Assembly (NCBI GenBank): GCA_028285305.1
Contig: JANQPV010000022.1
Span: 1-64,000, forward strand
Length of the DNA: 64,000 bases
DNA from: Alphaproteobacteria bacterium
Lineage (GTDB): Bacteria; Pseudomonadota; Alphaproteobacteria; SMXP01
Reading direction: 5' to 3'
Both the position numbers and the translations under genes were made by a program. Below are positions 23,818 through 27,081 of this stretch, in pieces. Below the pieces are notes generated by a model. The model made no database searches, was not told the DNA's origin, and saw only the letters and a list, made by a program, of their open reading frames with translations. Position 1 is the first letter of the stretch. Every line of letters starts with the position of its first letter.

Positions 23818-24537
23818 ATGACCCAGACGAGTGATCCGTGGGCAGCTTGTGTGCTGACATTGTTTCCCGATCTGTTTCCCGGCCCGCTGGGCGGATCGGT
23901 GATCGGCAAAGCGCTGCAAGACGGGATTTGGTCGCTAACGACTGTTGATATCCGGGAGTTTGCGGATGATCGGCACCGGACGGTCGATGGGCCTCCTGCC
24001 GGTGGCGGGCCGGGCATGGTTCTTCGGGCCGATGTGGTGGCAGCCGCAATCGACTCGCTCGGCAGCGATGGACGGCCACTGATCTATCTGTCGCCTCGGG
24101 GCGCGCCGCTTGCACAGTCCCGCGTGCGGCAATTGTCCGAAGACCAGGGTGCCATTTTGCTGTGCGGGAGATTTGAAGGTGTGGATGAGCGTGTTCTGCA
24201 GCACCGGGAGGTTGAGGAAATAAGTCTTGGGGACTTTGTCTTGGCAGGCGGGGAAGTCGCCGCCATGGCGTTGATCGAGGCGGTTGTCCGCGTGCTTCCC
24301 GGCGTTGTTGGGGATGCGGACTCGGTAAAGGAAGAGAGTTTTGAGACGGGATTGCTCGAATATCCGCACTACACTCGGCCTCAGGAATGGGAAGGGACGA
24401 GAATTCCCGACGTCCTGATTTCAGGAAATCATCAGCGGATCCGGACCTGGCGGCGCGAACAGTCAGAAGTCTTGACCAAAATGCGGCGGCCGGATTTGTG
24501 GAAGCGTTATCAGGCGCGGACGGAGAACGAAGCATAG
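23818..24537 (+). CDS. trmD: tRNA (guanine37-N1)-methyltransferase TrmD
   Basis: Adds m1G37 to tRNAs using SAM. 239 aa, normal length. The SPOUT trefoil-knot motifs are present: LFPDLFPGPL, GGGPGMVLRADV, LCGRFEGVDERV and SLGDFVLAGGEVAAMAL. The C-terminal anticodon-binding domain includes YTRPQEWEG and RIRTWRREQSEVLT. It starts 22 nt after rimM; rplS follows after 71 nt. Cytosolic homodimer in the family. Confidence 0.97.
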   Translation: MTQTSDPWAACVLTLFPDLFPGPLGGSVIGKALQDGIWSLTTVDIREFADDRHRTVDGPPAGGGPGMVLRADVVAAAIDSLGSDGRPLIYLSPRGAPLAQSRVRQLSEDQGAILLCGRFEGVDERVLQHREVEEISLGDFVLAGGEVAAMALIEAVVRVLPGVVGDADSVKEESFETGLLEYPHYTRPQEWEGTRIPDVLISGNHQRIRTWRREQSEVLTKMRRPDLWKRYQARTENEA

Positions 24538-24608
24538 AAGGACACATTGCGGCCATTCACATCGGTGGCGCGCGATGGTAGAGAGCTTGGAAAATAAGGA
24601 ACACAAGA

Positions 24609-25076
24609 ATGACTAATCTCATCGAACAGCTCGAAAAAGAGCACATGGCTGAACTGGCCGAGAACAAACAGATTCCGGAGTTCGGCCCCGGGGACACCCT
24701 CAAGGTCCATCTGAAAGTGACCGAGGGCACCCGCGAGCGCATTCAGGTTTTTGAGGCCGTCTGCATCGGCCGCTCTGGAGGTGGGCTGAATGAGAACTTC
24801 ACCATGCGCAAAATCTCCTATGGTGAGGGGCTTGAGCGCGTGTTTCCACTGTTCAGTCCGCTTATTGAAAAGATTGAAGTGGTGCGCCGTGGCCGGGTGC
24901 GCCGGGCGAAGCTGTACTATCTGAGAGGGCGTACCGGTAAGGCTGCCCGTATTGCAGAAAAGCAAGACTTTCGCCCCGCCGAAGAAAAGGAAAAGCCAAA
25001 GCGTAAGCGGGGCCGACGCAAAAAGGACAAAGCCGAGGCTGCTCAAGCGGCTGAGGACGTGTCCGCTTCCAGTTAG
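24609..25076 (+). CDS. rplS: Large ribosomal subunit protein L19 with basic tail
   Basis: 155 aa, against about 115-120 aa for typical L19. The core is intact ([20 protein letters not shown], then [34 protein letters not shown] and [25 protein letters not shown]). The extension after about residue 118 is rich in Lys, Arg, Glu and Ala ([15 protein letters not shown]), so it is basic, unlike the acidic S16 tail in the same block. The RBS is AAGGAACAC just ahead of the ATG. Confidence 0.96.
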
Positions 25077-25162
25077 ACAATTTGGCTTTGCCTCATTTGG
25101 GATTGCAGAGCTAACGGGAGCTGGATGTAAAGATTGAAATGGTGGTTTGAAGTTGAGTGCCT

Positions 25163-25221
25163 GCCTCCCCCTGGTGGGGAGGCCGAAAAGATGGAGATAC
25201 GACATCTTTTCGGGTGGGGGG
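25163..25221 (+). repeat. Left terminal inverted repeat of the DUF559 element
   Basis: Hairpin A: GCCTCCCC (25163-25170), loop CTGGT, GGGGAGGC (25176-25183). Hairpin B: CCGAAAAGATG (25183-25193), 9-nt loop, CATCTTTTCGG (25203-25213). It is followed by GTGGGGGG. The repeat lies about 86 nt after rplS and ends 19 nt before the DUF559 start codon. Confidence 0.75.
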
Positions 25222-25240
25222 AAATTGGCAGCCTCGCAAG

Positions 25241-25621
25241 ATGATCGAACGGCAGCAGAGAGACCGAGCGAGAAAGCTCAGAAGCGAAGCAACCGAAGCT
25301 GAGCGCAGACTTTGGAAATATCTAAGGTCGAAGCAAGTAGAAGGTGCGAAATTTCGGCGGCAAGTCCCGATCTCTTCATACATTGCCGATTTCGCCTGCC
25401 ATTCTCATAAGCTAATTGTAGAGCTGGACGGCGGCCAACATAGCGCGGTGTCTGAAAAGAACTACGATGACATACGGACGAAAGCCTTGCAGAACGAAGG
25501 CTATAATGTTCTTCGTTTCTGGAATAACGAAGTTTTGACAAATGAAGAAGGCGTCGTTGATGCCATCCGAGATCAATTGAGAAAGCAGTTGTGCGACCCC
25601 CACCCGAAAAATCCTGCGTAA
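25241..25621 (+). CDS. DUF559 domain endonuclease-like protein
   Basis: 126 aa from ATG 25241; the frame is open upstream through the left repeat, but the family starts near MIERQQRDRARKLRSEAT. Domain features are ATEAERRLWKYLRSKQ, then FRRQVPISSYIADFAC with a conserved Asp, then LIVELDGGQH giving the E-x-D part of a PD-(D/E)XK-like site, and later NEGYNVLRFWNNEVL. This resembles Vsr-type nucleases. Activity is not proven for most members. The last eight codons (DPHPKNPA) and the stop lie inside the right inverted repeat, so gene and repeat are one unit. The gene interrupts the trmD-leu block. Confidence 0.88.
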   Translation: MIERQQRDRARKLRSEATEAERRLWKYLRSKQVEGAKFRRQVPISSYIADFACHSHKLIVELDGGQHSAVSEKNYDDIRTKALQNEGYNVLRFWNNEVLTNEEGVVDAIRDQLRKQLCDPHPKNPA

Positions 25622-25656
25622 CCTCCGATTTTTCGACCTCCCCACAAGGGGGAGGT
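25597..25656 (-). repeat. Right terminal inverted repeat of the DUF559 element
   Basis: Read on the minus strand it matches the left copy: ACCTCCCC, loop CTTGT, GGGGAGGT, then a second hairpin CGAAAAATC/GATTTTTCG, then GGTGGGGG. Plus-strand parts: CCCCCACCCG at 25597-25606, the 9-bp stem at 25605-25613 and 25627-25635, and the 8-bp stem at 25636-25643 and 25649-25656. It overlaps the 3' end of the DUF559 gene and ends 21 nt before leuC. Confidence 0.75.
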
Positions 25657-25677: not shown

Positions 25678-27081
25678 ATGGCTGGAAAGACCCTCTACGA
25701 TAAAATCTGGGACGCCCATGTGGTCGATACGTCTGAGGACGGAACGACGCATCTCTATATCGATCTGCATCTGGTTCACGAAGTGACAAGTCCGCAAGCC
25801 TTTGAAGGCCTGCGCACGGCGGGTCGCAAAGTCCGCCGGCCTGATCTGACCCTTGCCGTTGCGGATCATAACATTCCGACCACAGACCGGTCTTTGCCCA
25901 TTGAAGATCCGGACTCCGCGCTGCAGTTGGAAACGCTCGCCAAAAACACCAAGGAGTTTGGTGTCGAGTATTTCGACATGCACGATATTAGGAATGGCAT
26001 CGTTCACGTGGTGGGGCCTGAACAGGGTCTCACGCAGCCCGGTATGACTGTGGTCTGCGGAGACAGCCATACCTCCACCCACGGCGCTTTTGGGGCGCTG
26101 GCTCACGGAATCGGAACGTCCGAAGTGGAGCATGTGTTGGCGACGCAAACGCTCATGCAGCGGAAAATGAAGAACATGCGGGTGAACGTCAATGGCCGGC
26201 TCGGCCCGGGCATAACGGCCAAAGATGTGGCTCTTGCCATCATAGGCAAGATCGGCACAGCGGGCGGAACCGGCTACGTCATCGAATATGCCGGTGATAC
26301 GATCCGTGGTTTGAGTATGGAAGGGCGCATGACCCTCTGCAATCTGACGATCGAAGGCGGGGCTCGCGCTGGTTTGGTGGCGCCGGATGAAAAAACGTTA
26401 GAGTATATCAAGGGCCGTCCCCGTGCGCCGAAGGGCGGGGCCTGGGAAATGGCGGTCGCCTACTGGAAGGCGTTGACGTCCGATCCCGACGCGGTCTTTG
26501 ACGAAGAAATCACTCTCAAGGCGGAAGACATCCCGCCTCTGGTGACGTGGGGCACGTCGCCAGAGGATGTGATCCCTGTCACCGGTTCCGTACCAGCGCC
26601 GGCCGATTTTGACGATGAGAACAAACGGATGGCTGTGGAACGCTCGCTCGATTATATGGGCCTCACGCCCGGCACCCCGATGCAAGATATCAAGATTGAC
26701 CGTGTCTTTATTGGATCGTGTACGAACAGCCGCATTGAAGATATGCGCGCCGTGGCTGAGGTTGTCAAAGGCCGCAAAGTGGCGGGCCATGTGAGCGCGA
26801 TGATCGTGCCCGGTTCCGGCCTTGTTAAGGCACAGGCAGAAGAAGAAGGGCTCGATCAGATCTTTCTCGAAGCGGGTTTTGAATGGCGGGAAGCGGGCTG
26901 CTCCATGTGCTTGGCAATGAATCCCGACAAGCTCCAACCCGGGGAACGCTGCGCCTCAACGTCAAACCGGAATTTTGAGGGTCGCCAAGGGCCCGGCGGG
27001 CGCACCCATTTGGTCAGTCCATCTATGGCGGCGGCGGCGGCCATCAAAGGTAGCTTCGCCGATATCCGAGAGTTCGAGTGA
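25678..27081 (+). CDS. leuC: 3-Isopropylmalate dehydratase large subunit
   Basis: Aconitase-family subunit of isopropylmalate isomerase in leucine synthesis. 467 aa. Cluster ligands are in [13 protein letters not shown] and GCSMCLAMN. The ends [12 protein letters not shown] and [17 protein letters not shown] are standard. The DUF559 element sits directly upstream, so its hairpins may reduce read-through from the rplS side. The stop overlaps the start of the YceI gene. Confidence 0.97.

Follow-up and report, generated by a model that had tools for sequence, protein, structure and literature searches.

Intrastrand triplex motif repeats (TM, also PIT or TMECO) have been described in more than 260 genomes and have no known mover (Holder et al. 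2015, PMC4666352). Each consists of a pyrimidine arm, a loop, a purine arm, a short linker and a third purine arm in mirror orientation, and the copies are dispersed, often as inverted pairs; E. coli K-12 has 23 of them, the gonococcus about 100 and Microcystis hundreds, and single-stranded TMECO DNA forms a stable triplex in vitro, with no footprint in vivo (PMC4666352). Transposases and integrases were sought near the E. coli copies and none was found, and that paper makes no mention of DUF559, ycjD or a nuclease (PMC4666352). A second described system, REP/REPIN sequences with their RAYT (TnpA-REP) enzymes, has an enzyme gene between inverted palindromic repeats, gene-less pairs and solo repeats, and a repeat type that tracks the enzyme clade. 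The locus reported here shares this logic, and RAYT/REP units are in this respect its closest analogue, with an enzyme of another superfamily: RAYTs are Y1 HUH transposases, whereas here a PD-(D/E)XK nuclease is combined with a repeat that has a third mirror arm. YcjD, a DUF559 protein, was listed as a member of the PD-(D/E)XK superfamily in 2005 (PMC1189080). In the open-access literature (subscription papers and preprints being outside the scope of the search) no report was found that ties DUF559 to inverted repeats or that describes it as the gene of a repeat-bounded element. The TM repeats and the superfamily membership of YcjD are already known; new with respect to this literature is a DUF559 nuclease gene bounded by TM repeats.

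The window, i.e. the whole stretch of 64,000 nucleotides that was analysed, comes from Alphaproteobacteria bacterium and contains such a gene between rplS and leuC (Table 1). The locus is probably one copy of a widespread compact element of ~450 bp, mobile or mobile-derived, in which a single DUF559 gene lies within an inverted TM pair and whose spread would be driven by the nuclease.

Table 1. Features of the element and its neighbours in the window.
Feature	Position	Strand	Details	Basis
Whole element	25164..25655	+	492 bp, between rplS and leuC	inverted-repeat search, strict motif finder
Left TM repeat	25164..25219	+		strict motif finder, fold
Left pyrimidine arm	25164-25170		CCTCCCC	
Left loop			CTGGT	
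Left purine arm	25176-25182		GGGGAGG	
Left second hairpin	25183-25212		in linker	
Left third arm	25213-25219		GGTGGGG	
Right TM repeat, inverted	25598..25655	-		strict motif finder, fold
Right pyrimidine arm	25649-25655	-		
Right purine arm	25637-25643	-		
Right second hairpin	25605-25636	-		
Right third arm	25598-25604	-		
DUF559 PD-(D/E)XK (Vsr-fold) nuclease gene, predicted	25241..25621	+	126 aa from ATG 25241 (likely start)	PF04480 match
Last eight codons including stop	25598..25621	+	PHPKNPA-stop, inside right repeat	fold/sequence
rplS, left neighbour	24609..25076	+		ORF list, synteny
leuC, right neighbour	25678..27081	+		ORF list, orthologues

A preliminary description of this DNA had proposed that inverted repeats flank the DUF559 gene, and they were recovered by an inverted-repeat search of the window, as flanking arms of 33 nt at 85% identity (25164-25196 / 25623-25655) and inner arms of 14 nt at 100% (25207-25220 / 25597-25610); the element thus has terminal inverted repeats, as insertion sequences and MITEs do. 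Read from the outside in, each repeat has CCTCCCC and GGGGAGG, separated by a loop of 5 nt, then a second hairpin (~30 nt) and GGTGGGG. The finer points of that description also held: the closing pair of the first hairpin covaries (G25163-C25183 in the left copy, A-T in the right), the second hairpin is paired in both copies despite different stem bases, and the last eight codons are made by the right repeat. The nuclease likely starts at the ATG given in Table 1 and not at GTG 25157, a codon immediately outside the left repeat from which an ORF would read through that repeat. Several long overlapping ORFs on both strands surround rplS and the element (24510-25205) and have no support as genes. 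A chance origin of the inverted repeats is excluded, because their scores at the own locus (36-46) exceed the shuffle maxima (20-26), because a strict TM finder (7-nt arms, perfect third arm) returns exactly two motifs in the 64 kb, namely the ends of the element, and none in five shuffles, and because the hairpin pattern occurs at 7 sites per strand in the host genome versus 0 for a reversed control.

The GGTGGGG tail, absent from the preliminary description, repeats the purine arm GGGGAGG in mirror orientation, a T facing the A, and is a potential third strand. In antiparallel purine-motif triplexes G is placed on G:C pairs and A or T on A:T pairs. Since the tail mirrors the purine arm according to this rule, each window end is a perfect TM; both satisfy the full arrangement (pyrimidine arm, loop, purine arm, linker, antiparallel mirror third arm) over 7 triads. 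The window repeats and the E. coli copies of Holder et al. (PMC4666352) have the same motif; the window subtype differs from the published repeats in the extra second hairpin of its 30-32 nt linker and in its associated DUF559 gene, and triplex folding of its ends is predicted from sequence. Among long asymmetric hairpins beside DUF559 genes, selected without requiring a third arm, the mirror third arm is better than the parallel one in 215 versus 85 (binomial p 4e-14, an optimistic value in that the hairpins are not independent). Such hairpins were used because self-mirror arms such as GGGAGAGGG confound mirror counts over fixed 7-mers. Perfect mirrors follow 226 of 566 hairpins beside DUF559 genes, versus ~41 expected from scrambled arms.

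The window protein is a clear member of the DUF559/YcjD family, matching PF04480 over profile positions 2-108 of 109 (E 1.2e-41, 141.5 bits against a cut-off of 20.6) and the family structure PDB 3hrl at E 3.8e-24. The DUF559 profile itself matches 3hrl at E 1.2e-39, the Vsr-fold endonuclease of a mobile intron (3r3p) at E 2e-5 and Vsr (1cw0) only distantly, at E 0.08. On these matches the protein is assigned a PD-(D/E)XK / Vsr-like fold, with predicted nuclease activity; residues E21, E61, D63 and H67 are invariant and D50 is conserved in at least 90% of 69 sequences, and pN/pS values of 0.09-0.62 indicate purifying selection on DUF559. Vsr repairs T:G mismatches and is paired with a cytosine methyltransferase; it has no flanking repeats, whereas the DUF559 gene is repeat-bounded. 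V.NgoAXIII of the gonococcus may, we assume, be a DUF559 protein as well. No HUH family, and hence no Y1 HUH transposase, matches the window protein, and no known RNA family was found by Rfam at 12 loci. Searches of PADLOC and PHROGs gave only weak matches, to nuclease or helicase domains and homing endonucleases; a defence role for the element is therefore not supported.

Association of gene and repeats is not peculiar to the window. A first set comprised 109 non-redundant DUF559 loci, taken from plasmids as well as whole genomes and picked by highest DUF559 score, so that multi-domain DUF559 proteins with weak matches fall outside it. Flanking inverted repeats score above their own shuffle maximum in 97 of these loci, and a strict TM lies within about 350 nt of the gene in 101, on both sides in 64 and on one side in 37. 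TM density is 2.78/kb near the gene versus 0.05/kb distally, and the nearest TM pair faces inward, with its third arms toward the gene, in 56 cases but outward in only 3. Elements have a median length of 451 bp, and 82/109 have their stop codon within the right repeat or past it. A further 77 DUF559 loci from named organisms, found with a 10-row DUF559 alignment that also gave matches on viral contigs, include Gamma-, Beta- and Deltaproteobacteria, Nitrospira, Binatia and Gastranaerophilales; a strict TM is present in 68 and an inverted-repeat score of at least 34 in 63, whereas control genes of these loci give 8/71 and 1/71, respectively. At one locus (L219) N runs make the inverted-repeat score meaningless, and its removal changes nothing. 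Overall, the loci range from Proteobacteria to Cyanobacteria and Deinococcus; the Deinococcus gene has long inverted repeats, the Neisseria gene a weaker pair, and E. coli ycjD and its Klebsiella relative a TM just downstream, which in E. coli is on one side only.

It is extremely improbable that the repeats are simply terminators of a small gene whose similarity reflects convergence of G+C-rich hairpins. They are indeed hairpins at gene ends, but the window repeats have no T-run, possess the mirror third arm and share their two-hairpin form with dispersed copies, control genes are without such repeats, and E. coli TMs show no terminator activity (PMC4666352, discussion).

At the level of genomes, a canonical TM pattern (which misses other TM types, including that of the window) is present in 52/91 genomes with a strong DUF559 gene versus 16/260 without (OR 20, p 2e-23), and the association persists when one genome is taken per family (OR 28, p 3e-10) and outside the class of the host (12/16 DUF559 genomes versus 10/133 without). 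TM copies thus concentrate in DUF559 genomes, with odds ratios of 20-37 across comparisons, which genome size may inflate; roughly one in three sampled genomes of the class has a DUF559 gene. There are also TM-rich genomes in which no DUF559 gene was detected, e.g. G046 with 35 copies and G563 with 130, and many DUF559 genomes without the canonical pattern. The former could mean that the repeats are spread by another agent (a RAYT, replication slippage or recombination), with the DUF559 gene carried between pairs by homologous recombination and not acting on them, and the existence of gene-less pairs and solo copies, together with the 23 TMs of E. coli for a single ycjD with a TM on one side, fits that account as well. 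It is nevertheless rather unlikely, as a passenger gene would not be expected to recur between the repeats across phyla, nor would its clade be expected to keep one repeat type at sites that are unrelated (see below), and Holder et al. report no gene for mobility near the TMs of E. coli (PMC4666352).

As in RAYT/REP units, the host genome contains an enzyme gene between inverted repeats together with solo repeats and pairs that lack a gene. Pattern and similarity searches gave a second full DUF559 element on contig C36, a gene-less inverted TM pair of 218 bp on C60 and a solo repeat on C24. The second stem has different bases in all seven host-genome copies, the two of the window and five more, and remains largely paired throughout; another genus of the same family (L020) has the two-hairpin form as well, again with a stem of its own. 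The solo repeat on C24 (L016, 1371-1531) adjoins an inverted pair of the commoner TM type, such that two types cluster at one intergenic site. In three genomes of the same family the rplS-leuC gap is 104-150 bp and contains neither a DUF559 gene nor such a repeat; in the window genome it is 601 bp, or 109 bp minus the 492-bp unit. As the intergenic sequences are too diverged to align, this comparison demonstrates absence at a syntenic site and not an exact junction, and no consistent target-site duplication was seen at the window and host-genome copies inspected by eye. The preliminary description had regarded the element as a unit kept for its structure, comparable to REP/RAYT but with a Vsr-like nuclease, and had named uniqueness of the repeats to this locus, or presence of the element at this site in all relatives with no further copies, as grounds for rejecting that idea. 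Neither is the case, and with repeats in multiple copies, absence in relatives and an association that spans phyla the idea is supported.

The similarity of the DUF559 profile to 3r3p, a related nuclease fold acting in mobile DNA, and the phage homing-endonuclease families among the weak matches raise the alternative that the nuclease cuts sites that lack the unit (a solo repeat or another target) and that the unit is copied in by homologous repair. This is improbable: unlike the mobile-intron system, there is no intron or intein host here, and the TM-bounded units occur at non-homologous sites; related elements are found where the flanks have no homology, which homing does not produce.

Signs of relocation come from the genus of genome G016, taken to be Sphingomonas from the match of locus L094 to a S. 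parapaucimobilis record (L079). DUF559 matches number 1 to 10 per genome in 30 of its 31 genomes and lie at different sites, and related elements occur without homology in their flanks. The ends of one element recur as solo copies at other sites, at 91-100% identity, in several species, and an alignment of two species over about 121 kb, at 87% identity, shows TM pairs of one that are absent or replaced in the other. For comparison of enzyme and repeat, the fetched loci were reduced to 29 distinct genomic sites and the repeat-encoded protein tails were left out of the tree; on it the repeat type changes 5 times versus 15 in shuffles, with 0/200 shuffles as low. Nuclease clade and repeat type are thus co-inherited across unrelated sites. 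Several Sphingomonas elements are at the same site in many species, and many have been in place for a long time, so that movement is rare or the element partly domesticated.

Such fixed elements, together with the purifying selection on DUF559 and the finding that the Caulobacter DUF559 protein VsrA is responsible for an SOS response in cells without the methyltransferase ScmA (PMC12907096), would suit a nuclease of repair or genome maintenance, Vsr-like or resolving triplex or hairpin blocks, for which the repeats are its own regulatory or processing sites and which has little or no mobility. That interpretation is unlikely given the spread of 0-10 copies per genome over different sites within one genus, the scattered solo and gene-less repeats, and the absence of the element from the syntenic gap of three relatives of the window genome.

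Among the loci compared at other sites, neither a transposition event nor a target-site duplication was seen, and no empty site of a full element was perfectly clean. At the L128 site a sister genome carries a different 825-bp stretch; on Azospirillum plasmids the element is at the same site in all compared; and in the comparison of S. meliloti pSymB the flank is not shared and there is no motif in the 50 kb read. On pSymB of S. meliloti Ak57 (L085, ~1850-2550) the DUF559 gene lies between inverted repeats of ~113 bp with 98% identity, each of them a TM pair; these repeats may be the RIME elements of rhizobia. The E. coli sapF-ycjD-fabI segment is, as queried, mostly missing in about 2,000 of 5,426 genomes, and in three E. 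coli examples (L213, L214, L216) efflux genes follow sapF where ycjD sits elsewhere, which is not a clean empty site.

Co-inheritance of nuclease and repeats as a unit is well supported by these sequence comparisons, but from joint inheritance alone it does not follow that the enzyme acts on the repeats; that the nuclease moves the element, and does so by recognition, nicking and copying, is what we infer. In the mechanism proposed, the Vsr-fold nuclease would recognise its own repeat, most likely when this is exposed at replication forks as a single strand folded into hairpin plus third strand, with the triplex rather than the hairpin alone perhaps being read, and would nick beside it; repair- or replication-coupled copying would then place the whole unit, or its ends alone, at a new position. 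On this view solo repeats and pairs that lack a gene would be non-autonomous passengers, the counterpart of REPINs in RAYT systems. A bolder proposal, put forward tentatively, is that DUF559 nucleases are dedicated to a DNA triplex (or a hairpin-plus-third-strand fold) and might have created, and still be dispersing, the TM repeats of hundreds of genomes, as a new class of replicating element with a Vsr-fold nuclease instead of a transposase. A nuclease gene that is bounded by TM repeats and recurs in many bacteria looks like an unrecognised kind of small mobile element, and one that is also co-inherited with the repeats is a candidate mover and origin for abundant bacterial triplex-forming repeats, a question that thereby becomes testable. 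If true, this would provide a function for the large uncharacterised DUF559 nuclease family, and a protein that may recognise DNA triplexes.

Two minor observations concern Sphingomonas. On a plasmid of S. parapaucimobilis (L079, 1350-1917) a TM pair occurs in two near-identical direct copies with the DUF559 gene between them, in the gap before dnaG, a site common to several species of the genus. A second family of long palindromes (CCCGCTCCCCCACCCGGCCACCCA ... TGGGTGGCCGGGTGGGGGAGCGGGC) forms clean insertions of 110-137 bp in one Sphingomonas genome that are absent in a relative (L193-L212; G398:C61 versus G409:C1), e.g. at A88474/B94733 and A154125/B163136.
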